A stretch of DNA of 64,000 nt from Thuidium tamariscinum (taxonomy: Eukaryota; Streptophyta; Bryopsida; Hypnales; Thuidiaceae), in the NCBI GenBank assembly GCA_947034885.2, contig OX344749.2, positions 41,197,682 to 41,261,681 of the forward strand, in the 5' to 3' direction. Every line of letters begins with the position of its first letter. Position 1 is the stretch's first letter. Below the pieces are notes generated by a model. That model worked only from the letters and a program-made list of their open reading frames with translations, was not told where the DNA came from and ran no database searches. Below are positions 5,697-49,569 of the stretch, piece by piece. The position numbers were made by a program, and so were the translations under genes.

Positions 5697-5706
5697 ACAA
5701 CTAGAC
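5697..5706. repeat. Left target-site duplication of element A
   Basis: The 10 bp ACAACTAGAC lies directly outside the left terminal repeat and is matched exactly at 19690-19699 directly outside the right one. Ten bases is within the 9-11 bp range usual for MULEs. Caution: the same 10-mer also occurs by itself near 5625, so the local sequence is repetitive. Confidence 0.8.
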
Positions 5707-5773
5707 CAGGGTTGCTATTCTGTGAGCCTGCGAGCGTGAGCTTGTGAGCTTGTGAGCCTGTGAGCCTGTGAGC
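5707..5773. repeat. Left terminal inverted repeat with GTGAGC octamer array
   Basis: The inverted terminus runs about 40 bp and passes directly into short tandem units of the type (C/T)(T/G)GTGAGC. It mirrors 19626-19689. The same arrangement is found at 35172 and 41822-41861, the ends of element B. Arrays of short subterminal repeats are typical transposase-binding regions in MULEs; binding here is inferred. Confidence 0.8.
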
Positions 5774-6706
5774 ATACATTTTTCTGGGATGAAATCTAGA
5801 GTTAGACCTATGACCGTGGGTTGGGGATAATACTAAAGTGGGTTTAAATATTGAAATTTTTTTTCCCATTTTGTACATCCAAAGTGTGACTTATCCTTAA
5901 ATGATATTTTATGTGTAATCATTTTTTAATTCCATTATATTTAAACCAATCGAAACATGTTCTTAGAATTTTTTTATTTATATATAGTAATATACGTGTA
6001 CAATTCAGGCTCACTATCTTCAAGATTTAGAAACATTCATTTGAATTCGTTATTATATCATACATAAATTGGTTTCACTAAATTATAATAATTGAGAAAA
6101 TTTTGAAAGTAGGAAAATATGATGAATAAAATAAGTAATGGAAGATATACCAATGAATTTGATATAACGTAATCATTCAATTTGAAATCCTCAGAAATTC
6201 AATAGAAAGAGATGGAATGTGCATTGTATTTTCGTATGGGGACAGAATCTTCAATGTATAAAAAATAATAATTAAAATAGTTCCGAACACAATTTGAAGG
6301 AACTGAAATTTTTAATGTTTAATGTCATTTAATGGATTCAGGGTTTAGGGTCCTGATCAGTGGAACTGGAGATCATAATGCCAGTGGGGCATTCCTCCTC
6401 TCGGCCACGAGAGGTATTACATGTCAAGAGAACATTGATCAACACCAAAATGAACCACTGTGGAAAACTATCTTGATTTTAAAGTAGTCTTTCAGAACTA
6501 AGAGACCTTCACCAATACAAAATACTAGAGATTTGATAGTATACAGCATACATATCATCTTTTACCTGATAACAAAATAACAATACAAATGAGGAGCTCA
6601 AAAAAATAATGTAACAACTGTATTGCTTACTACAAGAGGGGCAAAAAACAAATGAATAGAAAATGAAGAATGTGATACAAAAAGAGTAATACACCTAGAA
6701 GTAGGA
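5774..6706. other. Left subterminal region of element A
   Basis: Noncoding. It contains the word CCTATGACCGTGG near 5808, shared with other ends of the family, and one copy of the GC-rich palindrome (6397-6414, CCTCTCGGCCACGAGAGG). It lies downstream of the minus-strand gene and probably holds that gene's 3' untranslated region and polyadenylation site. I see no other gene. Confidence 0.6.
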
Positions 6707-9700
6707 TCACATAGATGAAGAAGACATTGACTGACAGTCGTCACTACTATCAGTGTAGGAAGGCACCTCATCTACTTCCACGGTTGTCACATCCAAAAAC
6801 TGCAAAACTCTAGGATTTAAAGTGGTAGTCTTATCCTGTGTAGGGATAAAACTCTGGGATGCATAATCCATTGCTAAAGCCTCAGCATATGGGGGTAGTA
6901 TATAAGGTTTATCTGGGCTTGGAAAAAAGCCAGGAAGTGAATAGAACGGTCGGTGTGTAGCCTCGGTAGACATCATGCTGTAGAAAAAACATGGAGAGTT
7001 AGAAATGATAATGCTCTGTGGCAACACTTCACAATGAAGAAGGAAAATAAATTAAGTGAAAACTTACTTACTGAATCGAGATTTCTTCACAACCTGTGGA
7101 ATAAGAACATCCACAGCGTCTGGGTCATTTGATACCAATGGCACAGTAGCCGGTGTGACCGGAACAATGTCAATCTTACGAATAAGAGGGGCAAGGAGTG
7201 CATCGAAGATTGCCTTGTCTTCTTCCAAGGCAATGATGTGCCTGTCTAGAAGCCTACACGCATGGATGGCGGCACCTGCATCATGCAAAGAGACTTTACA
7301 TTTGAATACTAATAGAACGGGTAGAAGTAATTAAAAGCTTCAATGGCATTACAATATCAAAGAAAGGTTGTGGAAGTTACCAGTTGAAGCTGTACAATCC
7401 ACAACCACGTCACCCGGGAGAGATGATGCTTCAATGAACATCTGCATAAATCGAGGATCTTTCTCACGTGCCCCTCTCCAAGGAATACCGTTGTCCATGG
7501 CCCTCGTCTCCGCCTTTGTGTAATTCTGTAGAATGTCATCGCGGGCAACGTCTACTCCAAGTGCCTTCAACTTTGAGCATTCCTGGAATGTGAACTTCGA
7601 AGGTCCAACCTCCGGCAAATTCCTCACCCACAATGAGATTCCAAAACGCAAAGTCTGCACAATAAGGCAGGTCAATCTCCAAAAAATATTGTAGGGATTA
7701 CAAGAGCATTCAAAAATATCTTTGAAAGTGGATGTGAAGACAAAACATACCGTAGAGGAACGATCCAAAGGTGAAGTAAGGTGCAAGCGGTTCATCCCCC
7801 ACCATTCTTTGCGTAATTTGAAGGAATATGGGTTTGCATACCCAACGATATCGGCTTTGGCCTGAGCCCTATAAGGATGAATAATAATAAGAGCCCCATC
7901 ATCCTGCAAATGGCCATCTGAAAATTCAAAAAGAGATTGCAGCCAAGTGTCGGGTCGCTCATTCCACTTTGGGACCACATGAGAAGGCTTTGACACATCA
8001 GGTACAGGTAAGCCTTCGGGCATGTCGGCGATGATCAGATCAACGCGTGGTTTGTCAGTACGAATACCCTTAAAGAATCGTTCTTTATCCGCCGTGTGCT
8101 GCCAAATATACAAAAGTCCGATTCAAGTCCGCAATTGAAAAATAGGTGAAAGTGCAAACAATTCAAAATGAAGTGAAAGGCCTCACCTTGCCCATGAATT
8201 TGACAATGTCATGGTACAACTGAGGGAGAGGGTCAGCAAGGACCGCCTCCAGAGATGAGTTGCAAATGAACTCGTCTATAGATATCTCGTTGTCATTTAT
8301 CACGTCAATGACTGGGGGTCCATGTACTAAACCGTCTTCCGTCAATGGTAAATGCTGCTCTGCAGATGACATCGGAACCGGTTTCCTCGATGAGCTCCCT
8401 GAATTCTTCTCCTTAGGCACTTCCTTTTCCTTCTCAACTGTTTTCAAGTTCCTCTTCTTAACTCTCTGAAGCGCCTTCTCCACAGCCTCCGAATTTCGAC
8501 TTGCAATCTTCCTTTCTGCTTCCTCCTTCTTCTTCACAACCATGGCCCGAGTCTCCTCATCCAAGCTAGCCAACTCCTGGTCCTCCTGGACAAGAGGTTG
8601 GGAATTGATCAAGCGCTTCAACCGGTCTTCAGGAAGAGGGGTAAATTCTGGAGAGCAGTCAAGGTACCAAGCTCCAGTCTTCAAGTGTGCAGTAGTCCAC
8701 CACTTCAACTGGGAAGGAGAAAACATGGAACTCTCGGTAGACACGTCCAACCATGTTGCAAGAAAGGGTGGTAGATTTTTCTTTGCAATCGCTGCCTTCG
8801 GAAGCAGCTCATATTTGAAATACCTGGAAAATGGTACAAATGTCTCAAGCCTCCATCCACGATGAAAAAGGTAAGGAAACAAATGTAACATAGTAAATGA
8901 CTATAAACGCACCAAATACAATAATACCTGAAAATGACACGCTTTACAACGAGGTCCGAGTCTTTATGCTTCACAAAGGAATCTGACTTTTTGAAGTTGT
9001 CATGCCCCCTAAAGTTCGGAAGGAATGCATGATCCCAGACTCTGCATCTCCAGTCTTCTATGTAATCCGCTAAGTCATCTGGCTCCTGGGGCGACTCCAT
9101 ATTCATGACAAGGTTATCTTTCTTCACAATAGTCTCGAACATCTCTGTAGCTACATCTTCAATCTACACGTTCATGAAATACAAGCAGTTAGTTGAATTC
9201 ATTGAAAAGAAACACTGTCCATGAAGAAAGTGTGTACACAGTCAAGTGAAATGTTTCCACATGAAGCTAAATTTTGAAAATAGGAAAGGATTAACTCACC
9301 CCTGCATACCAACAAGCCTTAACCAAGAAGGACTTCAAATCTGATTCTCCAACGGGCTTCACTGGAAATCGACGTGCCTCCCTAGTTTGAATGGACGAGT
9401 TCCACCACCGCAACCACTTTACTTTATGCTGAGGCTTCACGTTGCATGTGGCAATCATTTGTAACTTGTCCAGAGTCATCTCGGGAATAGAATTCAAACT
9501 CCAATGACGCTCAATCTGTGAATACGTAAATTAATGATTAAAATGAAAAACAAAATAGTTAGCCATTGGACGTTGAATCAATTAATCCAGAAATGCATAC
9601 CTCATCAAGCCACTCCGTTCCAAGGTTTGGATTAGCCACGGTAGTAAGCTTCCCTAACTTCTTCATAAGGACATCAGTCTTCTCCTTAGTGCCATGTCGC

Positions 9701-12700
9701 ATGGCAGCCAAGATGCCCTTTTCCGTCTGCTCTTCTTCCACAGTGTCTTCCTTGTAGAACCGCACAGCAGTATCCGTAGCAGCCGCAATCTCATACTATA
9801 GTAATAAATAGATACAAAGGTGTGAGATACATAAAAAAAGCTTACAAGAATCGTGAAGGCCCAACAGAACGTAAATGATAATTGGGAGAACTTACACGAT
9901 ATATGAATGCCGTGAAAACCTCTGTCGACATGCTGTACCAAGACTTTCTTAAATTCTGAGTGCATTGAGTCATCTCTGAGGGACTGAGATGCTCAGAAAA
10001 CTTGTCCAAAGACATGACTCCATATTTGCGCACCCGATATAACGTGTGAACCAAGCTGGTCTTTATGAATGAACTCTCTGTATGTCTGCAATAATCGAAA
10101 TACAGATTCAGCAAACAATACGAAATCTGTAGAGAAAACAAAAAAAGACAGGTATTGTTGAGGATTTAGACAAACTTACTTATTAATGTCATGCATAACA
10201 TGCATGACAGCTCCAATACGACCCTTGGTCTCCAGTATAATGGAATCCACCGAAACATGCCATTGTCGATTATTGGAATGGTGTTTCGAAATGTAGGATG
10301 TCCATGCCAGCAGTTGGTGGTTGCCATCACAGACGAAGAATTTCGAATTCTGCAGATGCTGCAACGCAGGGGTAGCAGCCAAATACGAATTGAAGATGTC
10401 GTTCTCCTCATTCCAATGTGGTCCCCAGGAAACTTTATCACCTGCAGTCACAGACTCTTCAAGGCCCTGCTCATTAGTAACGGAGACATATAACGCAGCC
10501 CGCCCTTCAATATAACCGTGTACGTAATCTTGCTGCAGCCTGATCAAGTCACATTGTAATGCTGGTCTGATCATTGGCATCTGCACAAGACGACATAGAG
10601 GTATTCGGAGACGAGAATCTGCATGGGGTTTCATTCTCAGTTCGGAGATGGTAGCCACGGAGTTAACTTTCTGGGACCTGCGAAGGGCATCCTCGGAGGT
10701 GAAATTCTCTCTAGGCTCCTCAACATCGCACGCATCATCTTCGATGTCATTCCTTGTCCCGATTGCAGGTTGTTCAGTCGTATGGGATTCAACCACAGAC
10801 GATTGGACGCCAGCCTCTGCAATTGGACCTACTTCATGAGGCTGAACCTGCAAAATCGAGAACATGAAACACTACATTAGCATCAAATACAGGAGATCAC
10901 ATCGTACTGATTTAATGAACTATGTTCTCACATAGATGAACGAACAATGCAAGGGAGGAAAGTGACGACCTATAATTTGGGCATTTGAATCAAAACTGTG
11001 CCCTCCCCTTAAAACCTAAAATCAAAGCGATAAATCTTTGTTTCGCTCTCGGCGCCAAGAAGACAGACAGCGAGACTTAGAAGTGATTATACAACAACAA
11101 CAACCCTGCACGCAATGAAAATTCAAGGTCACCTTACTCTATTCGTAGTCAATCTACCCGCAACCAAATGGGAAACTTCTCTCTAGGTCAATTCTTGTTG
11201 GACATACATGCAACCAATTATAACTCACCTCGGCGCCGAGAGCAAGACTACTTTGCTGCTATCGAATAAAATATTAATGATAATCTTAATTTCGTTATCA
11301 AATGTCCATGACCAGTCTTATCTCTCGGCCCCGAGAGGTAGCCGTATTGCAACACAATGAATCCGATGACTATCAAAAATCCGTATTGAACGACACCTCT
11401 CGGCGCCGACAGGTAGAATATCGAACATGACCCTAAACCAGACACATCAATTACTTCTGAAATTTCTTAGCATTATTACAGTATTGCGGTCACCCCTCGG
11501 CGCCGAGAGCGGAGTGCATCCAGACAAGTGTTGATGTTAACTCTAGAATTTTATATTCTTCAAGAACTAAAGGCGTCTTGTACAAGATTCCTGAAGGAAT
11601 GCGCATGGAATTGATCGGATTTAAATGGGTGGGCTTCCCCTTGGCGCCGAGAGGACTACCGGGTACTCAGTCAGGTGATGGTAAGTCTCAGTGATTCCTC
11701 GATGGATCAGGGAGCACCTGGCCAGGGTAGGAAACTGGCCTCCACCTCGGCGCCGAGAGGATCATCGGGGAGTGACACTTCTGCAATTTAACATCAAGAA
11801 ATTCTTTCCTGTCCCAGCACTAGTCCTCTCATTCCCATCCGAGACTACGGTCTTCTCGGGCCGCTCCAATTTTCTGATCCTATCTCTCGGCGCCGAGAGG
11901 ACTGCCCCGAACTGCTGGGTCTGATCTCAAAGGTCTGAAAATTCTGTCCGATTGAAAGACAGAGGTTCCCAACTCGAAAATCATTCTCGCCCTCGGCGCC
12001 GAGAGGACTGGGGGATTAGGGTGTTGATGATCCAGAACTCATGAAGAACCAGGAGAGCGTAGGAATGCGGCCACTCATCAAAGAGAGTAGATTGGACCCT
12101 TGGCGCCGGCAGAACCAGCTGGGACGATAAAGCTGATTCGAAAAAGGACTGGGGTTACGAAGGCAGATTGTTGCGGTACGTTGAAGCTGATTCAAACTAG
12201 GAATTTCGTGGCAGGATATTGCGATATGGCTCTGAATTCGGCTTCTTATCGGAATGGAAATCTACACCCTCGGCGCCGAGAAGAATGCTAGCGAGTGCTG
12301 GATTTGATTCCAGCCTAAATCCCAAAAAAATTCAGATCAAACAGCTCTGAGTGCACTGCCGGTTTTTGATGATGCTGATTCTCAGAATCAGACCAATCTC
12401 TCTGCATAGACACGGCCCCTCCTGAGCCCTAATTATAATCGGTTTGAAACTCAATCAATCTGACCAGTCTAGCATACCAATCAATGTAGACAGCCGTGCT
12501 CCGTGGATAATTGTGAGAGCCGATACCGCCGTCCTTGAACCCACATTCTCAGCTAATCTCACCGAATACCCTAACCTCTTTGGACTCTCACTCTCTGAAA
12601 AGCAATGCCGCTCTCGGTGTTGGGAGGATTACCTCAGAGATGGTAAGCATTTCGTTCGGGAGCCGGCCAATTCACTTCGGCGGCCTACAAAATTAAGAAA

Positions 12701-12922
12701 GTCGGCCTCTATCTATTCCTACTGGCCTCCTACACATTTCAGAAGAACATGTGTAACCCGAGGTGAAATACGTACCCCGGAGCCCAAGTCTGTTGGAGTT
12801 GACGAAATGGCGCTGCGTTGGTCCCCTTCATCATAGCTCTCCTCGCTCGCACTCGGGTCATCCTCTACTCCCGCTCCGGTGGCGGTAGCTGGTCTCCTCG
12901 CCATCTCTGCCGCACTCTGCAT
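6707..12922 (-). CDS. ParB-like / DNA-methyltransferase-like fusion protein, 11 exons
   Basis: Exons, in transcript order, are 12922-12776, 10847-10180, 10085-9896, 9795-9601, 9515-9300, 9163-8928, 8823-8187, 8098-7751, 7654-7381, 7275-7068 and 6977-6707. Every junction is GT-AG and the phases join without a stop, giving 1129 residues. Residues about 128-270 follow ParB topology: a leading strand (RIPLCRL), a helix, then CDGNHQLLAW (about 222-231, matching the DGxHRLxA box), a VSVDSIIL strand and a following helix. Residues about 764-1030 follow the beta-class order of N4/N6 methyltransferases: DLIIADMPEG (783-792, DMPE in place of D/NPPY), then GDVVVDCTASTG (960-971, motif I) and HIIALEED. 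Exon 7 encodes a charged, lysine-rich coil. Catalysis is uncertain because both key motifs are altered. It is divergent to the transposase within one transposon. The start could also be the ATG at 12904. Confidence 0.8.
10848..12775 (-). other. Large first intron of the ParB/methyltransferase-like gene
   Basis: This 1.93-kb intron starts GTACGT after a GGG codon and ends TTTTGCAG before GTTCAG. It is far longer than the gene's other introns (about 80-130 bp) and clearly more GC-rich. Most of it is occupied by the palindrome array. Small open frames inside (for example near 11691-11924 and 12444-12836) show no recognisable protein and are probably accidental. Confidence 0.75.
11046..12282. repeat. 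Array of eleven 18-bp palindromes (CCTCTCGGCGCCGAGAGG)
   Basis: Copies or near-copies lie at 11046, 11228, 11322, 11396, 11495, 11637, 11744, 11883, 11991, 12097 and 12267, with a degenerate one at 12610. The spacing is about 75-180 bp. The shared core is CTCGGCGCCGAG; the spacers are unrelated except for a frequent GAGGACT after the core. The preserved dyad symmetry amid diverged spacers suggests a protein-bound site. It lies within intron 1 of the ParB-like gene and upstream of its coding bulk. A parS-like role for its own ParB-like product is inference; a promoter, methylation or replication role is equally open. Confidence 0.85.
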
Positions 12923-13399
12923 CCACGCGCGGAGAGAACCTTAGCCCCTCCCAAAATGTAGTGCAATGTCGCTTTAGGGTATGGAGTTGATGAATGTCGA
13001 AAGACGGAAGGGCCTAAAAACATGGGCGGAAGCAACCGCGTTACACAGAAGAGAAAGCGGTGCGATTTAGGGTGAGGGTTGCGGAACAGCGGGAGGCTGG
13101 TTGACAGCAGAAGGTACAGAAGCGAATCATCACGGGAGGACGGTGTGTGAACAGGTCACGAATACCAAGTCCGACTATTAGAACGTTGCTTCGGGGGGAA
13201 GAAAAGTGAATTTATGTATTTCATTCATACATATAAACAAGGCATAATAGTATGTGGATGGTCATCCAGAGTCCATACACGTTATCTTAAAGCCCAGGCA
13301 ATACAACAATCGCTAGAACAAAGCTTTTTAAAACGAGGAAAGTTTAGTACCCCTCCTTAAGCATACATTGCTGTTACATGGAAGATATCTACCAGATGG

Positions 13400-13690
13400 T
13401 TGAAAAAATGTTTTATAGGTGTCTTGATTCTCTTTAGACTAATCCCCCGTAATCAATAAATTAATACATCATGGAGGCCGCGTGCCCTACTTGAAGGTTA
13501 AAAAAATGTATCATGTGTTTCTTAGATCTCGTTGGTGTTAACCCCACCAACCAATACATGAATAGAATATGGAGACCGCGGGTCCGATAAGAAGATGAAA
13601 AAAACGTATCATGTGTCTATCAATTCTCCTTGGCCTAACACCACCCAGCAATAAATGAAGCTAATATGTCATAGTCCCTAACCAAAGGTG
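13400..13690. repeat. Three degenerate tandem units of about 100 bp
   Basis: Each unit contains a GTTGAAAAAA- or ATGAAAAAAA-like start, then (A/G)TGT(T/C)T with a C/T-rich stretch, a CCACC or CCCCC word, AAT(A/C)AAT and often a GGAG(G/A)CCGCG word. Units begin near 13400, 13499 and 13598. They lie in the divergent promoter region and could hold regulatory sites. Confidence 0.55.
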
Positions 13691-13804
13691 AAAACAGCAA
13701 TAGGGCTTTTATTCATGGATTGCTATACTGTTCTATATTTTCCTAGGGCTTCGCTTCTTATTTATTGAATTCAAGTCGAGGATTTAATACTCACAACAAA
13801 ATGG

Positions 13805-14125
13805 TTATTCAGAAAAAGATCTACTTACAGAAGAGTAGAACGTTCCTCCTAGGCTGCAAACTCTATGTGTTTCCTGCAGAAAACATTGCGACTTCTGAGG
13901 ACTCCGTTCGTTGACCTCCTTCCCTTCTTTATCTTCAATTTCCTGCAAACCGGAAGCAAGTCCTACTGAAAAGCCACCATTGTTCGATGATATTATCAAT
14001 GCTCTTCTTCGAGAGTGCAGTAACTGCTTACGCGAAGAAAAAAGAAGTTTTCCCCTCTTCTTCCTTCTCTTCTTCCTCTCCGTAAATTCAAAACTACCTT
14101 CACAAGTCTCATTTTCCGTCAGCAT
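13805..14125 (-). CDS. Small open frame of doubtful status, basic protein
   Basis: An open frame of 106 codons on the minus strand begins at an ATG and includes a very basic tract (ERKKRRKKRGK) followed by serine- and arginine-rich sequence. It lies between the two main genes of element A. I do not recognise a family, and an overlapping plus-strand frame is equally open. It could be a third small gene of the element, an upstream exon of one of the large genes, or chance. Confidence 0.2.
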   Translation of the reverse strand: MLTENETCEGSFEFTERKKRRKKRGKLLFSSRKQLLHSRRRALIISSNNGGFSVGLASGLQEIEDKEGKEVNERSPQKSQCFLQETHRVCSLGGTFYSSVSRSFSE

Positions 14126-15199
14126 TAGTCTTCCGCTACATATTGCAATATGGCTCAGAAAATAGCAAAACTTAGTATCGCTTCCACTGCTACTCAGATC
14201 ATGCTAAAGTTTCTTTTACTAGCTCAATCTAAGACCCACTATATTCACTAGCACTACCACAATGAAGCCTTACCACTCACTACTCACGCTCTTAAAATGA
14301 TGTTTTACTTGATGACTTTATACTATACTAACAAATCACACAGTGGCAAGAGCCTTCCTTTTGGGTGAAGAGGCAATTCTTTTATACACAATTCAGAATT
14401 TAATTTTATATGAGTAAGTGAAGATATCACGATTTACTTTAAATTTCAATCACAAGTTCGAAGAATTTTCTAGATGGTCTTCAGCAAATGTTCCTAGAAG
14501 GTTCATTTCTAAAAACAATTATTGAAATGGCCTAACTTTACGGTTTAGGAAGTGCAATTACTGTTTATATCTTCGAGAAGCGAATAACGGATATCTTGAC
14601 AGAATCAAATTGAATCAGTAGTTCTAGGTATTGAGAGTTCAATTCAAATGGACTGCGTTATTTATTGCCAAATGGAACATGATATCAGTCCCAAAACATA
14701 TTTGTGACAATGTTGTAACAGGCTGTGGCGAAATTGGGGGCACCTTAATGTATGTGTCAGATTTATTTAAGTTGAAATATAGATGATTAAATGGGTTGGT
14801 TTGTATTTGCATAGGTGTCCTATTACAATTTTGAATAAAAAGCTAGCGAGGCACGTACTTCATTTTGGGTATTAAATTACCCACATTTATTATGTTTTTT
14901 GAATTCTAAAGTACTTGGCCTCATTAGTTAGGTTCTTCATCAGACACTTCAAGAGCAATGTACCGAAACCTACATTTTGGCGGTCATTTCAAAAATCAAC
15001 TTTTTCCAGTACTAGAAATATTGCATTCTATCGGCTACTGACGATCCCATAGTCTAGTGTCCCCTGCTTCCATTTATAACACTATCTCATGCCCTTATAT
15101 ACTGTACTTTTGAACCCTTGAAGTCATTTGCTTCCTATTGTTTGATGTCTGCTGTTTCATATTTCTTTAGTTCTGCAGTGAAAGCAAAATTCTTTGGCA

Positions 15200-18100
15200 A
15201 TGGCCTCCATTCGAGCAGATGGACATGAAATTCCGCTAGTACTTCCTCTTGATGAAGAAGGGTTTGCTGTCGTGTCTTCACACCTTCTTCATGTTCGATT
15301 TGGATTTGTCCAGTCTAGTATTTACGTTGAAGAGGAGGTCATGTCCGACTCTGGCCACTTGAAGGAATCTGTCCATATGTTGAAGGTAGCAATTGACGAT
15401 GGTCATGTCTGGAAACTTTGTCATGGGCGCTATAGAGCTTATGGTTTGTGCTCTATCGTCATGGGTGGCTCCAATGATGTCTTACCTCGCACGTCAGATT
15501 ATTCTACAGTGAATATGCCGTCTTTGCGTCAGGATATTAGTAGTTCTGTGGAAACTGATCACATTAGGCTTAATGGTACTCCTGTTCAACTTGTTCGAGT
15601 GAAGCAAGAAGTTCTAGACCCAATCATCGATATATCGAGTGAGTCTGAGGGAGAGTCTCCCAGCCAACCCAGCTTACAGGCAACACTTCATCATATACTT
15701 CCCAAGAAAGTCATGAAGCCAGCTTCCACTCCGTTTAGCACACCTTCTAGTAGTCCTACTTTTTCCACTCATTCTCGTCCTCCAACTTATCCAAATGGTA
15801 CAACTAGTACCATTAGTATTGTCGATTGTCTTCGCATACTAGGAGCTATTCGTGGATCCAGGAACGAAGTTGTTGCTTTAGACTATGATTCAATTGTACA
15901 TCACAAAGTGCAGTACCTGCCCCCGGACTTTGATGGAAATGTGATATTCGAGTTGCCACATCTTCATGCTTCATCTTCAGCAACTGTTGGTAGGAACTTG
16001 CATGGTATGGATAAACGTTATAATGGTCATGCATGGTGTCGAACCATGACATCCAATATCAATAACGAAAATGGTCTCAAGTTTAGAAAATCTTCTTGTG
16101 CAGGCCATCTAGTATGTAACAACCCCGACTGTGAGTACTTGAAACGATCATCAAAGCGCAACGAAACTGAGTGGTGCGGTTATACTGCTATACCATTTTC
16201 TGTTGGCCTAGCCCCTCCAAAAGACTCCACTCTTCTTTGCAAGATTTGCAAAATTCCTCCTCATTGCGTTAGTGCCTGTGATGCTAGAGTGTATTATGTT
16301 TTTAGCAATGTTGCAGTTATGACCAGAGCATGCATTCATTTAGGTTGCCATATGCATCCTGTTGCTTCCGGAACATGTAGGGAGTCTTTGGACACTATCA
16401 GTGAACTTATAGCAGATGAGGTTTCCAAAACCCCTAGTGCAACTAATTTTGCCATAGCCCTTGCAGCTAGTAAGCAGTTTTTAGACAATCACCTCATACA
16501 CGTCGGGGATGGACCTAAAGAGATGTTGGAGGGAAAATCACTTGAGGATGTGATGGATAGGTTCCAAATATTGAGTTCCCCTAATATCCGTAATACCATA
16601 TCTTCATTTCGTAGTACTGGCAAAGGTGGGGTCATAGATAGCATCATGAATATGAAACGGAATTTGAAGTTCGAATACATCCATGACAATGTTTTCCCTG
16701 GACAAGGAAAGGAAAAAGTATACTTGTTTAAGATGTTGGTAGATGGACCTGGTAGTGGAGTGGACTTAGTCAAACGCATGCAAGTTGGTGGAGATTTGGA
16801 GAATGCGTGGATAATGTTTGACCATGTAAAACGTGTAAGAGATTGGACGACCATGGCCTGCCATGTGTACGACACAGGATGCAGGAAAGTCATGACAATT
16901 GCTGTCTGTGACATGCAATCAGAAGATACCGAAATCCAATGTATCATGTGGAGATTACTTAATGATGTTATGAGACGCAATGGTGTGGAGAATCCAAATT
17001 TCAAAGGCTTCATGGCAGACAGCGCACAAGCTAATTGGAATGCCGTTCGCATTGTATATGGTACGGGGAATCCGAAGGAAATGATGGAGAACCGCGAACG
17101 AACATGTCTCCTGCATTGGATTACTTCGCTGCATCGACATACACAGAAGCTCATTAAACCAGATCTGCAACACCAGCATATTCGACTATGCAAGCAATAT
17201 AAAGACTCAAAGACCATGGAGGAAGCGGAGACAAGATACTTGGCCATTCGATCATGGTGGTTATCATCAGGGGCAGCCTCAGAAGATGCTATGCGGGAAC
17301 TAGAGTTGTGGCTTTGCTTTTGGCACTTCCGATATCGTCAATGGGGAGGCTTCATGGAAATGGTAACTTCACCTATCATCTTTCTATTTCCATGATTTAA
17401 TCTTATTCCGAATTCAATTATGAATAATATTTTTGTATTAAGTAAATATTAGAATAACCACTTGAAGGTCCAATTTGATCAACGTAGTGAACGAGTGAGT
17501 TCCCTCTCGGAGCCGAGAGGTCACTTCACTGGCCACTGAGATGATGAAGAACATCAACGCTTCGCTATGGTTAGGCATTTGTACAAATCAAACTGGTTAA
17601 GTGGAAGCTTACCTCTCGGAGCCGAGAGTTAACTTCACAACCTACTATGCCGATTAGAAATTGTAGCACTCTGCCTTGTTTAAAGACGTTTTTTAATCAA
17701 ACTTGGATATATGTGAAACACCTCTCGGAGAAGAGAGGTAACTTGAGGCCCTACTGAACAGATTAGAAATACAACTCATGAGTCACTATTATTTTTAGGA
17801 TTATCAGAAATGGCTTTGTAGGACTCATCATATTTTTTCAATTGCAGGGACTTAGTATTGAAGAGATGGCAGACATGCCATCATGCAACTTGTCTGAGAC
17901 AATCCATAACAAATGGTTGCAGCAGTCTGGTAATCGAGGAAATGATTTATTTGCCGCAACTTGTGATGACTGCATTCGTGCTTTCATGCAAATGACAAAT
18001 TACCGAGCATTCTTGAAGGGTAAGACATCTAGGTCAGGGCCATCTAAAGAGGAGTTGAAGTTAAGAGGTGCTAGGCGTAGCGGCGACCCAAAGAAGATCG

Positions 18101-19254
18101 CAGAGGCATTGAATGTGCTTCCCGGAGCAGTTGATGTTACAACACGTGTTCCACACTTGGAGGGCGAAGAGGTGTTCGGTAGTGGGAAGCGCAAGCTTGA
18201 CCTTCCAATTGGGTCGGATGGTGACTCCCATCGACCTGACAAGGTCAATTTCTCTCAGCCACGGGTCCTTACCCGATCTACCCGCGAACCAATGGAACCT
18301 TCAAATAATGCCGACACTCCCCGCGACTCTGAGCATGTACCGCATGTCACAACAGCATTGGAGAGTGATTGTGACACTTCGCAATGGCATATTGCGAGAT
18401 TATCACACAAGTCTAGCTGCAAATGTCACGCCCAGCAGCGTGGATCCAACATCCGCTGTGTCGCAAAAATTGCAAGGGGATGTAAGGGCACTCCGGCTCC
18501 AACGTATCGTGGTAGAAAGAAACAATGGGGTGGAAACAAGGAGGTCGTGACCGATTTTTGGTTCTGCCCAGATGATATTGACCGATGTGTTCAAGGCTCT
18601 AAACGTGCTTGGGTAATTGACTGGCCTCAAGTACCAGACGTGTGGCCTGTAATGACGGGCACTAGTTTGACTCGCCAAGAAACACTTATGTTACAAGAGG
18701 GTGGTTTCCTTCTCCAGGAGCGCCCACCAATGTCACCTCGAAGATTATTTACCATGTCCAATGTTTTTGAGGCGGTCCTTCATGATGAACGGAGCCCTCT
18801 GCATGCAGACACCTACCCAACAACTCGAAGGAGCAAGCCCATTAGGCGACTTGCCAATGCTCCTAGTACAGAGCATCGCAATAAGTGGGAGAGTGCTACG
18901 AATGTGAAAGGAACGATTTTGGGAGTTATGATGCTCCCGTATCCCGGACTGGGAGCTATAATCTCCCTTCAATCTGGAACAGAGCTTGCGCACAAAGTTT
19001 ATCAAATCACACTTGGAATGTATCCAGATTGCACTTGTCCTGATTTTGTTTACATGGCTGTCTCAGCGATTGGTGGACGACATCAATATGTCAATTGTAA
19101 ACATCTATATTACTTATTTCGTTACTTCTGCAAAATGAACCTACTAGAAGACAAGTTCATACATTCTCCAAGCTTTAGTTTCAATGAAGTGAAGCATCTC
19201 CTCATTAAAGCTGGTATCATGGTGGTTCCAAGCAAGGGTCTTCAACATACCTAG
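15200..19254 (+). CDS. MULE-type transposase with WRKY/GCM1-like zinc cluster and SWIM finger
   Basis: Two exons (15200-17362 and 17848-19254) joined in phase 0 give 1189 residues. The ATG at 15200 is the first in frame. The N-terminal half has a GCM1/WRKY-like zinc cluster: NGHAWCRT near residue 275, then C300, C306 and C311 in SSCAGHLVCNNPDCEYL, with further CKIC and HC residues up to about 360. The catalytic region shows MFDHVKRVRDW (D541) and FMADSAQANW (D607), then the C-x2-H signature CLLHW typical of MULEs; the third acidic residue is not assigned. The C-terminus has a SWIM finger, C1116-x-C1118-x19-C1138-x-H1140. WRKY-GCM1 fingers fused to MULE transposases are a known theme. It is intact and divergent to the ParB/methyltransferase-like gene. 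A serine-, proline- and threonine-rich linker lies at about residues 130-200. Confidence 0.85.
17363..17847 (+). other. Transposase intron carrying three palindromes
   Basis: This 485-bp intron runs from GTAACT to TTGCAG. It holds three copies of the element's palindrome in the variant form CCTCTCGGAGCCGAGAGG at 17503-17520, 17612-17628 and 17721-17738, spaced by about 109 bp, with similar words (GTTAACTTC, GGTCACTTC) after each. The same motif family fills intron 1 of the divergent gene. Confidence 0.85.
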
Positions 19255-19625
19255 AGCTCCAAAAATGTTTCAGTGCCTTCATATCTTAGGCTGTAAGGCA
19301 ACATCTATAGCTATAGAAGTATCATTTTGTCTTTGGACAAATACTGTATTTCGATGCTATTTTTTATCCACGCTTATTTCCATCCTTCTAAAACTAGTGC
19401 CATCAATTGAGTTCTTTGTCTTCACAATGTTTTGTTCTAATATTAAACCCTATTAAAAATCTAAAACTCTTATTTAATTTGTACATTTCCACGGTAATAG
19501 GTCCATGCTAATAAGGGCAAAAAATTACTAAGAATATTAAAATTTGACCATTTTTTTCTTTTCTAATACATTTTCTGTAATATTATTGAGTTTTCTAATG
19601 ATATTCCTTAGTTCTATGCTCCCCG
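19255..19625 (+). other. 3' region of the transposase gene and right subterminal DNA
   Basis: Noncoding AT-rich sequence between the transposase stop and the right terminal repeat. It contains the family's subterminal word as CCACGGTAATAGG (about 19491). The 3' untranslated region and polyadenylation site of the transposase presumably lie here. Confidence 0.6.
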
Positions 19626-19689
19626 CTCACAGAATCCCCGCTCAGTGCTCATAGGCTCACGCTCGCACGCTCACAGAATAGCACCGTTG
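19626..19689. repeat. Right terminal inverted repeat of element A
   Basis: Read inward it gives CAACGGTGCTATTCTGTGAG and then GTGCGAGCGTGAGCC-type repeats, matching the left end. CTCACAGAAT occurs twice, at the tip and about 45 bp in, a nested arrangement that is repeated at the left end of element B (35172). Confidence 0.8.
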
Positions 19690-19699
19690 ACAACTAGAC
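19690..19699. repeat. Right target-site duplication of element A
   Basis: ACAACTAGAC, identical to 5697-5706. Confidence 0.8.
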
Positions 19700-29115: not shown

Positions 29116-29690
29116 CCACCAAGGTATGAATCTTGGACCTCGCGGTTGAGGTTCAAGGTCCTCAACCATCACACCATCCATAGTGCTCCTTGGTTATATG
29201 AGAAGTAAGTTTAGTTTTATAAAGTTTCCTCTTATTTTTCCTTCACTATGTTGAAATCAGTAGACTTTGGTGGTAGATTTACTTGGTATAAATGATAGCA
29301 ACCTTTTGTCTCTTACGAGTACGCTATGACATCATAAACTCAAAATTAACATCCTTTACAACAAAACATTCTCTATGATGATGTTTAGAATATCTCATAG
29401 ATGTCTTAACAAATGTCTTGTATGACATCTTAACGTTTGTTAAGATGCATTGTAAATATCATTGAATAAGTGGAGTAGGTGGTCATTTATACCTAAATCA
29501 ACATGCCACGTCAACATTTTTTTTCCTACAAATTGCCTCTATGCTACCTATCTTATTTTTTTAGTACCGGCAAACATTATATTTAAATATTGAAAAATGA
29601 TTTTCACTTAATGGCTAAACATTGATCAATAAAGTTGATATGACAAATTCAATTTTCCTAAACATCCATTTGAACCCTCTTCCTCTCATT

Positions 29691-29777
29691 GTTAATGAGG
29701 TTTGTAAACTCATCAAATTCCATGTCCACGATCCCTTTGCCATTCAAAGATGTCTTCAACACTAACTCTGAAGAATG
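29691..29777 (-). pseudogene. Fossil of exon 7 of the ParB/methyltransferase-like gene
   Basis: The minus-strand translation (SLNGKGIVDMEFDEF within it) closely follows the fossil at 43290-43370 (SLEGKGIVDLKIVDEV), which itself aligns to exon 7 of the intact gene at 8187-8823. Only a short piece is recognisable. It marks a further, older copy of the transposon family. Confidence 0.5.
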
Positions 29778-30230
29778 TATGAATGTGAGGGAGCAATTTA
29801 ACTATCACCTTCTACTACTAAAGCATATTATAGTAAAGTTTTAGAGTTGGTGTGAAGTGAACATGTAGATTGTTGAGGTGCAATCAAGCCATGTCAGTAG
29901 GAACAGAGGGTGGTCTAAGTGTGAGATGGCTCTTTTCACTTTTAGCTTGAGCTTGAAATAACTACAACATAAGGACAATGATTAGAGAGATTGATTATGA
30001 TGAAATTAAAATGCATAGGAATATCTATAAGATGATATCTCTCTTACATAGTCTAAAACTTCTTATACAAATGAAAACATATCAAAATTAAAATTAGATA
30101 AGAAATAGTAAATAGGATATAGATGCATTCTTTGAAGCTCCAAAAATAAGATATAAAAAACAAAGGTAGAGATATTTTACCCTCCTATTTGACTTTCCCA
30201 ATATATTTTATTACACGTACATATTTACAG

Positions 30231-30395
30231 ATTGAAGATGCAGTTGTGGAATACTTCAATTAGGTAGTGAAGTAGGACAACATCATATTCAACTACAATG
30301 TTCCTCAACAATCACAGTACGTAGTAGAATACATGAAAGGATGAAGGCATAAGATTTGGGATCAAGGATTTAACCCTTATTTCAAGGATCTCAAT
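30231..30395 (+). pseudogene. Fossil of exon 6 of the ParB/methyltransferase-like gene
   Basis: After a preserved splice acceptor (TTTACAG), the plus strand reads IEDAVVEYF, then NYNVPQQ, YVVEYMKG and KIWDQGFNPYF. These match IEDVATEMF, DYIEDW and RVWDHAFLPNF of exon 6 in the intact gene. Three in-frame stops interrupt it. Its orientation is opposite to the fossil at 29691, so the two belong to different copies or to a rearranged one. Confidence 0.6.
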
Positions 30396-34699: not shown

Positions 34700-35171
34700 C
34701 TTGATTGCCTACTTTGCTGCTCTCAATCTCAAAACAAGTAAGATTTAAGAAATTTGTCAATTACAAGAATCAAAGTGGTTGTAGACTGAGTCACTGAATC
34801 TGATGTAGATGACTCTAAGGACTCTCTACCCTCATATGTAGAAACATCTATAAACTGCAAGACATTTAGAACATAAATGTCTTGATGTCGTTTTGATTTG
34901 GATCAATCAAAATTTAGAAAGGCACTTGCCATTTGCTCGGCATAGGGTAGAAACTCAAAAGGCTTCTCTAGACTAATGATAAAGCCTTTGATTTTGTTTC
35001 ATGACCTCTTCTTTTAGGATCAATTCACAACCACTAAAAAAATTGAAAATATTATATTAGTCTTTGAGAATGTAATATGAAGAAAAAAATAAAGAATGAA
35101 AAAATTTCTACTTACTTAGTGGATTTTCCGTTGCAAATGAACTTACAAGGCACAATAGGCATGTCTTGTGC
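34700..35171 (-). pseudogene. Fossil ParB/methyltransferase-like gene, 3' exons (part 2)
   Basis: Minus-strand fragments correspond to the end of exon 10 (AQDMPIVPCKFIC) and to exon 11 (a proline-rich stretch like KPYILPPYAEALA, and VLQFLDV-like sequence). It continues the fossil at 41862-44600; the two parts are separated by insertion of element B. The same piece is found uninterrupted at 49570-50078. Confidence 0.75.
35162..35171. repeat. Left target-site duplication of element B (diverged)
   Basis: TGTCTTGTGC pairs with CATCCTGTGC at 41862-41871: seven of ten bases match. The uninterrupted copy at about 49635 has the corresponding site once (GATGCACAGAA on the other strand), confirming a duplication. 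Confidence 0.7.
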
Positions 35172-36378
35172 CAGCGGTGCTATTCTGTGAGCTTGTGCGC
35201 ATGAGCCTGTGAGCGTAGAGCAGGGATTCTGTGAGCACAGAGTTTAGAAATTTGAGGAAGTATTATAAAACTTAATTTTATTCATTAAAATTGATTCCAT
35301 CTTAAAATTTGAATCAAAATTTTTTATTTCTAATAAATTTTAGTACCTATTTTGTAGACCTATTACCGTGGACCTATTACCGTGGTTGTATTGAAATTCG
35401 ATGAGAATTCTAATTTCCAATCTTACTTAAAAGTATACATTACAAAAATGAAGAACTCAATTGATATGAAAGATGAATAAAGATGGAATTAAGTTAATAT
35501 AGAGTATTGATTGATCATTATCCTATAGTAATCTAGATTTTTTTGAGGCCTAGAGAAAGGTACTAATGATTTTTATTGATGTATTATTATTATAGTTGCT
35601 TAGATTTTAGAAAAGAAATTTGTTGATAAAAATCTTTGCTACACTAAATTTTATTTTGGTTGATCATATTTTGTAGCATTATAAATCTTCTCAACGCCAA
35701 CAGGAGGGCATCAATTTTTTCCTTCTCAATTTTTAGTCAATGGACTTGTTTAAATTTTAGAAAAGAATTTGTTTGTATGATTTCATTATATATGGAAAGA
35801 ACTTAGTTGCACCAAATTTCATTTTGTTCATGAGTATCTTATAGTAGCGTAGGTCATAGAACGGGAAGATATTCATACAAAGAGGTTTTAATCCTACATT
35901 TCATCATGACTTTCAGCTCATATACTAATACAACCGGCCCAAGCCTAATTTCATAAATTAAAATCAGTCCATAGCCTTCATATTGTGAAGCAATTTGGCT
36001 GAAATCCTTTCGAATTTAAGACAACCAGTTAGAAACTGTACATTAATAATTTCAATCAGCTAAGAATTCTAAACTTTTAGTGCAAAGTTTGTTTGAAATT
36101 AATTTTTTTATCCTTGGCAAGATTCGAACCTGGTAACCCACCAACCATTTAGTGGCCAAGGATTCACCCCTCCAAGATACCAAATCCTAAAGTAAAAGGA
36201 AATGGTATCTAGGAGGGATTTTCTAACTACACAAACATTCAAACACATAAAAAACACATCTAGTCACTAGGCTGATCCATACCTTCATCATCCTCAATAG
36301 CATTGTTTGCAAGATACCGGCCAAGGTTAGAAAATAAATACCGAAATTTTCTAGAATTTTTCCACAAAGCAATAGCTT

Positions 36379-38523
36379 CTACCAAAAAAACATCAACATC
36401 GTTAGTTGGCCTTCAAGTGCAATACGCATAATAGACTCCAAACTCCTTATTTGGAGTCTATTACGCAATTTAGTTTTTATGCAATTCTGGACACTGAAAG
36501 CTCTTTCGCATTGTGCTGTACTAACACATTGTATGCGTGCTATATCTGCGATAGCAAGCAAATTAGAGTATTTCAGCTGTAAAGTGGGATTCCAACTTAC
36601 CATAGTCCATAAATCCCTGAATGTCTTGTCTTACCACTCCGTAGTGGCCTACAGTTTGAAAGCCAAAAATTCCCTCTTTACAGCTGAAGCATCAATTATG
36701 GCTGGAAATACTTTGGACCCAATATCATGATCCACACCAAAATGGGACAAAATTGTCTCCAACTCTGTCACACCCCAAGATCTCAGACCCACTTGCCTCA
36801 TAGGCATATTAGATGGACTCAAAATCTTGAAGCATGCAATAACACCATTATCTCCAAAACGAGTTTCCAATGCATCAATTACAACTTCAGCAAAGAACTT
36901 TTGAAATGACAAAGCTTCTTCAAGATCTGCCCCTGTTTTGTCCCTTATCATTGGTACACTGTGAAATGTGCCCCCCCCCCCGAATTTCTGAAGACAACCT
37001 TTTCAAAAAACCACCATGAAGACCAAAATTTGGAAGTATGTGAAACCCTGTTTCTTCATTAAAAGTGGAGGCATTCAGATCAGCAGTTTCAGTGACAAAC
37101 AACATGCGCAATTGAGCAATTTCTGTAGCAATGATAGAACCAACAGTAGAAACATCCACAATTTTGTATTGAAACACTCGACTCAACATAGAAAGACTGT
37201 GCAAAATATCAGCAAGGAAGTAAAGACAATATATGACTTTAAAATTCCGTAATTTTGTGTACAAAGACAATGCAACATCATCAGAGCGTCCATCTTCATT
37301 GAGACTATGGAAATAAACAAGCACTGACTCTAAAGAGTCACACAAAGTTGTAATAGCTTGCCAACGAGAAAGCCAACGTACCTTTTGATATCGCTTCATT
37401 GACTTCTCTGAATCATTCAGTTCCCTCTGAAGATTCTGTAATGCAACCTTTCTCTTTGATGAAATTTTGAAAAACTTAGCCACAGCATTTACCAAAGCAT
37501 CAATCTTCTTGGACATATCTCTGCACTCTGGTTTCTTTGCTGCATCAAGAGCTGCAAGGTTAGTTCGATGTGCCACGCAATGAATAGAAGTGAGAAAGGG
37601 ATTAACCTTCTCTTTCAATCTCGTTGCCACTCCATTTGTGCGTCCCGTCATTGTGGCAGCACCATCAGACCCAAATGCCACACATTTATCTGTATCCAGT
37701 CCCCACTCCTTCAAACTTGTTAGTAAAGTCTCAAATATTAAGGCAGAATCTTTTTTACTATCAGTTATGTGCAACAAGCCAAGGAACACACAAACAATAT
37801 CACCATCTTCAACAAATGTAGCAAAAACAACCAAATGCCTAGTAACTGAAATATCTGTACTCTCATCAATCATGAGTCCAAAATATTTTGCATCATGAAT
37901 TCTATGCAATTTTTTTTTTGAATTACAGAAGAGATGCAGAAGACAAAATCAGAACATGATTTTTCATCATGATACATTGTTTCAGTGATGCAAGCTTTGA
38001 CAAAAACCAATAAGTGACACAAATCAGGAAATCTTGCAAAAGGGATGAAAGATGAACCCATGTAATAGGCAGCCCTAAATAATGCCAACAAAGCTTCATC
38101 AGAAGTTGTTGTAGCCTTCTTAATAACTTCAGCCATCTTCTTGCTGCCATTGTGAAAAGCCCATAATAATCTCTTATGCTCCTCACTTCTTGCATGATCT
38201 TGAAAAGCAGAAATCTTCACATTCACTGAACCAGCCCTTGCAAAAACTCCCTTTCCTCCCTTATCACAGCACACTTTGCAAAAAACCCGCCCAATGTTAG
38301 AATTGAAGTCAATCCAATCAAAATCTGTATAATATGAATCTTTCCAAGCTCTCCTAGCAACCTCTACAGGATCAACAAGTTTGCTAGACTCTTTACTTTC
38401 CCTTCTTCCATCTGATGATGAAGCACTCCCTTCAGCAACCTCCCCCTTGTCCTTCTCAAAGAGCACTTGCTGAAATGATGATCTGAAGTACTCTTTCTGC
38501 AAGGTCCTTTGGCGCTTTGCCAT
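36379..38523 (-). pseudogene. Decayed hAT transposase (TTF zinc finger, DUF4371-like, dimerisation domain)
   Basis: Read from the ATG at 38523. It has a serine/lysine-rich start, a TTF/BED-like finger (CKVC with H and H in FQDHARSEEHKR), then a catalytic region with GLMIDESTD, FGSDGAATMTG and IHCVAHRTNLA. The C-terminal hAT dimerisation domain is at 36560-36400 (QCERAFSVQNCIKTKLRNRL). The frame shifts twice, in an A-run near 37910 and in a C-run at 36971-36980 (plus strand). Two in-frame stops lie between 36655 and 36630. Otherwise the protein is well preserved, so inactivation is not very ancient. The terminal repeats of this hAT could not be located. Confidence 0.85.
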
Positions 38524-38529
38524 TATCAC

Positions 38530-39300
38530 CTACAAAACATTAAAAATATAAGAATCAACCCAGTAAACCCTACCTACAACCATAATACAAAGAGCCAAGC
38601 ATCTTTAACAAAGGTCAAATATCAAGCAACGAGAAAGCAGTAGGAGCTGCAGGAAGGAGCCAGCGCAATACCAGCACACAACGGGAGCAGCGAAACAACA
38701 ACGTTGTGGGGCGAGCTCGGACGAGCGGGACCAGGCCGACCAATGCAATGAACGGGACCAGCGGGAGTGCGGACTGCGGAAGCAGCGGGAGTGTGGGACC
38801 AGCGGGATGATGAGGAGACTCGTGGCGACGGAGTCCAAGGTGGTCGGGGAAGACCAGGAGAGGTGGAGGTGGTCCGCGAAGGGAACAGCGAGTGGCAGTC
38901 GAATGAGGAGAGGGGGTTGGACAGAAATGGGAATCGTGAAATTGTGAGAGTCTCGATGCAGGAAAGCCGGTCGTGGGCGAGGCGGAGCAGGGACCCCCCG
39001 CTTCTGAGAAGAGAGCGGGTCAGCGGGTGGGAAGCATCATCGTCGTGAGAGTAGAATTGCTGGAGAGCACGTCGTGGAGAGGAGAGATGACGGGCGAGCG
39101 GGAGTGCGGGACCAGCATTGGGGCGAGTTCGGAGTGGGACTCTATGGGAGCAAACAGCGTAGAGAGACGTTGAGGTTTAGGGCGCCAAATGAGAGAGTGC
39201 TTGGGACCCCTCCTGACTCTCAGCCCCTAAGGGTGTCTAAGAACCGGCCCACCCACATCATACCCGGCTGAAAACCGACCATACCCTCAGGCCACTCAGT
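38530..39300. other. GC-rich upstream part of the hAT element
   Basis: The region 5' to the hAT transposase is far more GC-rich than its surroundings. It contains repeated GACCAGCGGGA and GCGGGAGTGCGG words, plausible subterminal binding repeats of the hAT. Small open frames on both strands are consequences of the base composition. Confidence 0.5.
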
Positions 39301-40860
39301 TTAAAATTGCCTTTTTAATATTCCAAGCAGCTAAAAATCCGGAATCCTAAGCTTGTACCGGTTAAAATCCTAATTTCATGATTTCTTGTCGGTTCTCCAA
39401 CATGTAATTCAGTATTTCAATCAGTTTTTTCAGTAAATCAAACGGCTCATCTTATACTAGCTGCCGATTCTTCCCGTTCATTGGCGTAGGTCTTCTCAAA
39501 AGCCAATGTAGGCACCTACAGTTTTGTCTTAATGTATCAATAATGGAACTTGTTAAGATTTTTTTTTAAAAATTTGATTGATAGGGATTACTTTTGTAAA
39601 GAATGAACTTTGTTACACAAAATTATTGATTAGTTGACTCATTATCCTCTTGTTCATCCAATGAAGGGATTCATTTCTTCTTTCTTGATGCAATGGTTGT
39701 TTATTTATCATCTTAAAACAATACTTGTCAAGTTTTTTTTAGATTTTTGTGAATACTCTCCTTGGTCTTGCTTCTTAGAACCCCTTGGCGCCGAGAAGAG
39801 TCCTACAGCTCCAATAAAATTATTATTGCAAAAAAAAAAAACATTTTTTTTTTTTTTTTTTTTTTCTAGCTTTCATTCCTAGTGTATGTACATGGAATGA
39901 TGTAAGCTCTGATCTCTAGTAATGTTTGCGTAAACAAGATAGAAACAACCTGTGACTTACTTTAATACAAGCTTTTATACGTGACACACTTAGCTCTTGT
40001 CTCTTGATAAAAAAATGTTCTTACAAATATGACAATTGGGAGGATAAATTTGACCCTTCTAAAATATTGTTTGTGAGGCATATCAATGCTCTTCTGAGTA
40101 GAGTGACAATTAACCCAGCTACTGGTAAGACTATAGTCAGTGAATCCAAATGAGATCACAAACAGACAGAAATGGTACTATGTACGAGTATGTAAGTCAT
40201 GCATGCTGGAATGACGGCTACCAAAATAATGCGGTAGGCTTATTACAGCTTAGGCTTTGAGAGTCATAAACTGGTTACATTAATTGATTCGTTTTAACCT
40301 GAACGAATGTGATCAACGAATGACTAAGAGGACACACCTTCCAATTTGAGTTCAAACTCAAGGCGGGCTTTTTTGGCAATTTAAAAAGGAAACTTGTGGG
40401 CCAGCACATATCACAAAGTGACCCTAGGGATAGGCTCTGTGGGCTGAGGTGATTGAGTCCGAACGCGCTCCGTATTCTCTAGTCACATGTGCATGTACCT
40501 GCCTGCGGAGAAAAGCCTTTGAGCACTACTGATTGCGCATGATTGGTGTAGGACTGTCGGTCTGTCTTCTTGTGAGCTGGTCACAGTAGCTATTTCGAGC
40601 AAGCAAGTGTTGAACGTGCCAAAATATGGCTTCGTCACAGTCGCAAACGAGCAGCCAAGTGGTGGATTATAGTTGCTAGCCTTCCGAATGAGTGGATTGC
40701 CTTTTTGCCTTTGTGCGTTTTTCGGTTTCTGTTTTTCCTTGCGAAAACAATAATACGTTGTAAGTAGGTTGAAGACACCTCGCATACGGATTTCTAACCT
40801 CATTTTTTGTTGTTGATCTCCATGGGTGTAGGTGAGGCCTACTACCTCAAGGAACAATGA
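39301..40860. other. Interior of element B without a recognisable gene
   Basis: It contains one palindrome copy (39781-39799), an A-run followed by a long T-run (39828-39866), and a minus-strand open frame at 40857-40483 (124 codons) that matches nothing I know. Confidence 0.5.
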
Positions 40861-40867
40861 AATGCTA

Positions 40868-41055
40868 GATAATTGCTTTTACCATGGCATTTGTCATTCT
40901 TAGAGCTTTGACTCATTAAGTTCAGATTACTTTTTGAGTCCATGTGTTACAGTACTTATGGATAATTGCTTCTACCACGGCATTTGTCATTTTCAGTGCT
41001 TTGACTCATTAAGTTTAGACTACTTTTTGAGTCCATGTGTTACAGTAACTTATTG
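40868..41055. repeat. Two 93-bp tandem units
   Basis: Units at 40868-40960 and 40961-41055 begin GATAATTGCTT and end GAGTCCATGTGTTACAGTA. They are about 90 percent alike. Confidence 0.85.
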
Positions 41056-45988: not shown

Positions 45989-46241
45989 TTGTTAGTTTTG
46001 TCTTTTTCTATTTGTCTTATCATGCCTAATAAGTCAACAAATGACAACTAGCCTAGTTTACTATTTCTAATAGAAACAAAACTAAAGACTAAACAACAAA
46101 CTAATAAATAGTAAAAGAATCAAAGTCAAATTAAATTAAATCAAATCACATGGCCCTACCTAAATCAAATGCAAATATTCTCATAAAATATCTTTCAATT
46201 CTCTTCTTCCAACATTCTAAATTCTCAAACTTCAAGTTTCC

Positions 46242-49400: not shown

Positions 49401-49569
49401 AGACTTAGAATAATGAATTAAGAATTTTCCACCTTCTAAGATGTTTCTTCACCATTTTGATAGAGACTGCTACCAAAACTCTCCTAACACTCTTTTTATA
49501 TATTTTTCTTATATATTTAAACTAAATTTCACAAAACATTAGCGAAAAATAGATCCAGAGTTCTGAGTG

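Follow-up and report, generated by a model that had tools for sequence, protein, structure and literature searches.

A probable Mutator-like element in the moss Thuidium tamariscinum with a methyltransferase-derived accessory gene and arrays of a short palindrome

Background

Mutator-like elements (MULEs) are DNA transposons that duplicate 8–11 bp of their target. Accessory genes are already known from MULEs, and an anti-silencing kind, VANC, has been described from Arabidopsis. Here we investigate 64,000 nucleotides of the Thuidium tamariscinum genome (contig OX344749.2, positions 41,197,682 to 41,261,681, hereafter the window, in whose numbering all coordinates are given). It contains a 13,983-bp MULE-like DNA transposon, element A, in which a probable transposase gene and a second, accessory gene are accompanied by arrays of a palindromic sequence.

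The system closest in design is that of the Arabidopsis VANDAL elements. VANC21 is described as binding the motif YAGTATTAY, which is found in introns of VANC21 and VANB21 and upstream of VANA21; the motif is rare in other transposable elements and sparse elsewhere, and its arrays expand as tandem repeats (PMC5735166). As described there, the VANDALs resemble element A in being MULEs with accessory genes and in having a short motif arrayed, partly in tandem, in the non-coding DNA of their own family, introns included (PMC5735166). However, VANDALs are referred to as elements without terminal inverted repeats (PMC13317346), whereas element A has inverted ends. In addition, the motif of element A is an 18-bp palindrome, and its accessory protein, which contains a methyltransferase-derived domain, gave no match to any other family.

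Other systems share single features with this locus. MuDR of maize is described as a two-gene MULE with a helper protein, mudrB (PMC6446971), and is likened to element A here by description. The N4CMT protein of bdelloid rotifers is an amino-methyltransferase of the PF01555 type in a eukaryote (PMC8885841). Unlike the domain encoded in element A, which is transposon-borne and apparently inactive, N4CMT is reported to be a host enzyme that is active, carries a chromodomain and aids transposon silencing. Transposon-borne methyltransferase genes have been described from dinoflagellates and charophytes (PMC5890265), but these are C5 enzymes in retrotransposons, in contrast to the amino-methyltransferase relative in a DNA transposon here. 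Lastly, bacterial ParB-methylase fusions, of which Bce_0392 is one (PMC5512222), have the order of parts that a first-pass annotation of this DNA had ascribed to the accessory protein. They differ from it in that its ParB part is unsupported, about 490 residues separate the two regions, and the catalytic motif is lost. Among the matches listed from open-licence PubMed Central, none describes a MULE carrying a gene for ParB or for an N4/N6 methyltransferase, which is no proof of absence.

Results and Discussion

The reading that we favour, with a probability of roughly 0.4, is that the accessory gene is the second gene of a MULE-like transposon and that its product is an inactive, methyltransferase-derived binder of the sequence CCTCTCGGCGCCGAGAGG, which would counter silencing or control expression and transposition. 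The most informative new feature is the set of palindrome arrays. Intron 1 of the accessory gene contains an array of the 12-mer palindrome CTCGGCGCCGAG, and further copies lie in the intron of the probable transposase gene. With up to 2 mismatches the 12-mer occurs 15 times in the 64 kb, against 0.11 expected, and none of 100 shuffled sequences reached 15. Among the perfect 12-bp palindromes that recur in the window, it alone is not purely A+T.

The 18-bp consensus CCTCTCGGCGCCGAGAGG has 16 sites at up to 3 mismatches, 14 in element A and 2 in another element, element C (39781 and 41466). In its 100 shuffles the mean was 0.26 and the maximum 2, counts lowered somewhat by the added requirement of the core CG, which the 12-mer control did not have. 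All 14 sites in element A are non-coding. Ten lie in intron 1 (11045–12283, starts 11045 to 12266), three are spaced at a 109-bp period in the transposase intron (17503–17738, starts 17503 to 17721), and one is 3' of the accessory gene (6397–6414). When up to 5 mismatches are allowed there are 19 sites, 15 of them in element A, all outside its coding exons, with 3 in element C and 1 elsewhere; the additional sites are one in intron 1, 35687 in element C, and 26090. Within the 64-kb window the arrays at the stricter limit are thus confined to non-coding DNA of the element's own family, as in the VANDALs. Each full site contains three CpGs. The observed/expected CpG ratio rises from 0.28 in the left flank to 0.71 in element A and 0.89 in intron 1; the retention of CpGs in this DNA would reflect either the youth of the element or a low level of methylation.

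Could the palindromes be no more than an unrelated dispersed host repeat that happens to sit in element A? The three copies in the transposase intron do belong to a 109-bp tandem repeat, so that their flanks were copied with them, and these units are related to one another (n=3, z 3.3 to 5.4). The copies tested in intron 1, however, have no common downstream flanks: for eight sites, pairwise comparison of the 82 bases that follow downstream shows no relationship (28 pairs, z -1.2 to 2.9), whereas the sites themselves are alike. This comparison used starts 11396 to 12266, which take in the more degenerate site 12096 and seven of the ten good sites of intron 1, with 11045, 11226 and 11321 excluded. 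Moreover, all 16 sites at up to 3 mismatches are in elements A and C and 0 are in the other 43 kb of the window. Chance residence of a host repeat is for these reasons quite improbable. Because the intron-1 sites are alike and their downstream flanks unrelated, these sites look as if each had been maintained individually or were much older than its surroundings. The palindromes resemble binding sites.

The chief rival to a site for the accessory protein is that the transposase binds the palindromes, or that a transposition complex assembles on them, with the accessory protein a helper in excision or insertion in the fashion of mudrB. Both genes travel within one element, mudrB is described as apparently needed for integration (PMC6446971), and element C retains ends and palindromes with no relative of this transposase detected in it. 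Against this, no palindrome is near an end of element A: the closest to the left end is 690 bp away from it, and on the right the distance is about 1.95 kb. We regard this rival as serious, if on the whole unlikely.

The bounds of element A (5707–19689) follow from the position of ACAACTAGAC, a perfect 10-bp direct repeat standing immediately outside both inverted ends, at 5697–5706 and 19690–19699 on the plus strand. The left terminal inverted repeat is rich in TGTGAGC (5707–5749, plus) and the right one is its counterpart on the minus strand (19647–19689); the arms 5713–5749 and 19647–19683 are 92% complementary over 37 nt. A third copy of the 10-mer lies near 5625, so the left flank is locally repetitive, but the duplication still abuts both ends exactly. 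The end core, GGGATTCTGTGAGC, is found a second time 44 bp in from the corresponding end of each of the elements A and C, at 19638 and 35223 respectively.

Divergent from the accessory gene, the probable transposase gene lies on the plus strand (15200–19254, exons 15200–17362 and 17848–19254) and encodes 1189 residues. Its product combines a cysteine/histidine cluster, which we take to be GCM-like, with blocks that contain aspartate and, at the C terminus, a SWIM-like motif. Pfam searches of pieces of this protein returned no transposase family, with SWIM at an expect value (E) of 0.1 on a fragment, below the cut-off. To judge from its sequence, MULE is the best, if provisional, class for element A because of the 10-bp duplication, the inverted ends and the layout. 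Between the two genes, at 13389–13668, there is a tandem repeat of about 98 bp, 71% alike and with no palindromic sites within it. The first-pass annotation had placed the accessory gene inside a MULE-type transposon. Its location within a transposon is borne out by the element ends, the duplication and the probable transposase gene on the opposite strand; the type is probable from duplication, ends and layout.

The accessory gene (6707–12922, minus strand) was earlier predicted to have eleven exons with consistent phases that encode 1129 residues, and this model was reproduced. The exons are 12922–12776, 10847–10180, 10085–9896, 9795–9601, 9515–9300, 9163–8928, 8823–8187, 8098–7751, 7654–7381, 7275–7068 and 6977–6707. 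All 10 introns are GT-AG with consistent phases, and the spliced frame has a single terminal stop, compared with 28 to 80 stops in each of the other five frames. Introns 2–10 are 85–136 bp long and have a pooled G+C content of 33%, versus 1928 bp and 47% for intron 1 (10848–12775), the site of the main palindrome array. Of all the exons, exon 1 is the least secure; the open frame can do without it because exon 2 remains open slightly upstream of its acceptor, with an ATG included.

A Pfam search of the whole accessory protein with a limit of E 10 returned nothing beyond N6_N4_Mtase and a weak match to a primase. The middle region (exons 4–7, 8187–9795, minus strand) matched no Pfam or NCBIfam family, and part of it is the portion best conserved in a broken relative, copy B (37.5% identity for residues 401–464 and 36.8% for 459–552 by tblastn). 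Pfam matches of single exons to HDV_ag (E 0.02), DUF3898 (E 0.007), Trp_leader1 (E 0.11), Nanovirus_coat (E 0.16) and zf-C2H2_ZNF462_11 (E 0.77) were below the cut-off and were taken as chance.

The methyltransferase-like domain comprises approximately residues 764–1013 (exons 8–10, 7068–8098, minus strand). As a domain it matches N6_N4_Mtase (PF01555) with an E of 6.2e-6 and 26.7 bits, which equals the curated cut-off; on the whole protein the score is 25.6 bits, slightly under it, and coverage is mainly of the motif I half. The motifs DLIIADMPEG, GDVVVDCTASTG and HIIALEED follow the order of beta-class N4/N6 methyltransferases, with motif IV (DLIIADMPEG) N-terminal to motif I (VVVDCTASTG), and are collinear with DpnA by phmmer. 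DpnA-type enzymes are also the nearest solved structures by sequence (E 0.022). Aligned by hhalign with a profile of 18 bacterial and phage enzymes, the domain scores 46.3 (E 6.4e-6), above the maximum of 60 shuffles (20.8), and four pieces of the transposase used as controls reach at most 15.1. This profile combines one megaphage protein with 17 proteins from loci L082–L113 (n=32), where a motif search gave 22 and L083, L095, L096, L104 and L112 were set aside because they were long or of another class. The lowest E for a PHROG methyltransferase family is 7.9e-6, and the NCBIfam CcrM model gives 19 bits, far under its cut-off of 830 bits. The beta-class order proposed in the first-pass annotation is thereby confirmed, and with it the presence of a methyltransferase-derived domain in a transposon-borne gene.

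The nearest relative found is an enzyme of a 635-kb uncultured phage, with 27.7% identity over half the domain (E 1e-5, the best of the matches at E up to 0.1 in 13 of 50,697 phage records). Viral contigs gave no confirmed relative with six exact 8-residue patterns, whose reach is limited to close relatives. Plasmids yielded no relative of the domain at E 0.01, and prokaryote contigs scanned with the megaphage enzyme no match.

Is the accessory protein an active DNA methyltransferase that marks the DNA of its element, as was first proposed? The domain order and the PF01555 match would agree with this, and bdelloid N4CMT, as described, shows such an enzyme at work in a eukaryote (PMC8885841). 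The sequence of the motifs argues otherwise. Amino-methyltransferases have a catalytic D/S/N-P-P-Y/F/W and an S-adenosylmethionine site of the form FxGxG. Here motif IV reads DMPE in place of DPPY and motif I reads TASTG in place of FxGxG, while the megaphage relative keeps DPPY and FAGTG. In copy B motif IV is DYLE, and motif I begins TTS, with the remainder beyond the exon edge. Copy B supports an ancestral loss of the motif only in part because it is itself broken. With DMPE in the accessory gene, DYLE in copy B and TASTG in motif I, catalysis and hence modification of the element's own DNA by this protein is unlikely, and we consider the enzyme explanation very improbable.

Under the favoured reading of an inactive binder, the C-terminal part would derive from a beta-class amino-methyltransferase whose catalytic motif has been lost, and because of that loss the accessory protein would serve for binding and have no enzymatic role. 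Presumably as a dimer, it would recognise CCTCTCGGCGCCGAGAGG where this sequence is arrayed in non-coding DNA of its own family, and this recognition would counteract host silencing, or control expression and transposition, in the manner of VANC and the VANDALs. We infer binding to the palindrome from the co-residence of gene and sites in element A; an anti-silencing effect would be a further step. The findings suggest a self-recognition system of a transposon rather than a DNA-marking enzyme. The earlier proposal that the protein guides the transposase or helps the element evade silencing fits the palindrome arrays, its role being one that we infer.

Several points weigh against this. The transposase or a host factor could be the binder of the palindromes instead. 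Some of the intron-1 sites, in repeat families of 29 and 40 nt (60–79% alike), do share a few bases past the palindrome. Exon 1 is a prediction, as consequently is intron 1; should exon 1 be wrong, the array would be in upstream DNA, still non-coding. VANC is likened to this protein by description, and the VANC21 motifs are in a single orientation and are not called palindromic in the portion of the account drawn on here (PMC5735166). As to the domain, residues 481–730 of the accessory protein score 22.7 against the methyltransferase profile, slightly over the shuffle maximum. It is the motif I half of the domain that carries the profile matches; the motif IV half gives -1.4 to -1.5 bits against DpnA. 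Since copy B is broken, its motif changes may be decay. Finally, no relative of the transposase was found in the window outside element A, so that any tie of copy B and two further copies, D and E, to this transposon family is conjectural.

These copies bear on another question, whether the accessory gene is a host gene captured by chance, as in Pack-MULEs, with no role in transposition. Copy B (41862–44519, minus strand, tblastn E 1e-25) is interrupted by stops and by element C, past which its last exon lies at 34732–34998 on the minus strand; its piecewise identity to the spliced accessory protein is 37.5, 36.8, 31.6 and 22.2%. Copy D is a 3' end (49553–50036, plus strand), and copy E consists of two fragments on opposite strands (29673–30386). 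Gene capture is described as common in plants (PMC13317346), and copies B, D and E are not placed in transposase-bearing elements; a search of the rest of the window for relatives of the transposase found none at E up to 1. On the other side, the accessory gene is full-length and intact with its introns kept, and its relatives are of differing divergence and are scattered as broken copies on both strands. Chance capture is improbable on this evidence.

Element C (35172–41861, 6,690 bp) has terminal repeats like those of element A and is inserted in copy B. When the flanks in copy B were joined without element C, with nine bases of the duplication removed, 143 of 171 positions (84%) were identical to copy D; with ten bases removed, the reading frame runs on into the sequence of copy D. 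The target duplication of element C is 10 bp with 7 matches. As far as the sequence allows, the end structure and the 10-bp duplication hold for two elements, A and C, of which C is the more decayed. Element C carries a hAT-like transposase on the minus strand at 36.6–38.5 kb, presumably ZNF862-like. It also contains an inverted repeat of 82 nt (39738–39819 and 41516–41597, 83% complementary), the left arm of which includes a palindromic site.

The ParB part of the first-pass annotation did not survive closer study. The region concerned, approximately residues 118–271 (10182–10643, minus strand), had no ParB match in Pfam, NCBIfam or PHROG at E up to 10, and a search of PDB sequences at the same limit gave neither ParB nor sulfiredoxin. 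Against a profile of 35 canonical Bacillota ParBs (30 from L114–L143 and five from L002–L081), hhalign scored the region at 9.8, below the shuffled mean of 11.3, with 37 of 60 shuffles as high, even though the query was taken without its internal stretch, a choice favouring the ParB hypothesis. The method recovered 5 of 6 held-out bacterial ParBs at 100%; the one missed, L117, has a 457-residue frame that may not be ParB. MAFFT did not bring the proposed ParB boxes together. In phages tblastn of the region found 1 record (E 6), and a search of 21 bacterial genomes gave a match in 1 (E 0.044, in a frame containing a stop).

Within the region, the box CDGNHQLLAW has a glutamine where the GERR box of bacterial ParB, matched by eye, has its second arginine. 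We take this second arginine to be the conserved arginine of the active-site pocket. In the ParB/sulfiredoxin superfamily such an arginine is described as highly conserved (PMC5512222). A model of exon 2 alone made by AlphaFold2 from the single sequence had a mean predicted local distance difference test (pLDDT) of 33.3, and a second AlphaFold2 model 32.6; both were unusable. The 64-kb window held no second copy of the region. ParB identity is rejected on the hidden Markov model libraries, the PDB sequences, hhalign against shuffles, the phage tblastn and the 21 bacterial genomes. A remote ParB relationship may exist, because only one sequence of the region was at hand and the profile consisted of canonical Bacillota ParBs, but it should not be claimed. 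A ParB/methyltransferase fusion of the bacterial kind is likewise unsupported: a short look-alike is all that remains of its first part, and the approximately 490 residues between it and the methyltransferase-like domain are of unclassified protein.

Other features of the window include an 83-bp tandem repeat upstream of copy B (46229–46484, 3.1 copies, 95% alike). At 57077 on the plus strand there is a match to the terminal-repeat core with 2 mismatches and AGGG shortly upstream, possibly the end of an element extending towards 60–64 kb. A nuclear gene for the mitochondrial complex I subunit NDUFS7 occupies approximately 54.8–56.6 kb on the plus strand in at least two exons; its best PDB matches are chains that we take to be from flowering plants, in agreement with a land-plant host.

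Conclusions

The proposed system is readily testable, since it consists of one protein and one palindrome with three CpGs per full site. Going beyond this locus, a MULE lineage of land plants might, through loss of the catalytic motif, have turned a bacterial-type amino-methyltransferase into a sequence-specific anti-silencing factor for CpG-rich palindromes within its own introns, independently of VANC; we hold this broader proposal to be doubtful and offer it tentatively. If it is true, then this would be a second protein with site arrays of its own, and self-recognition by transposons would have been reached more than once.

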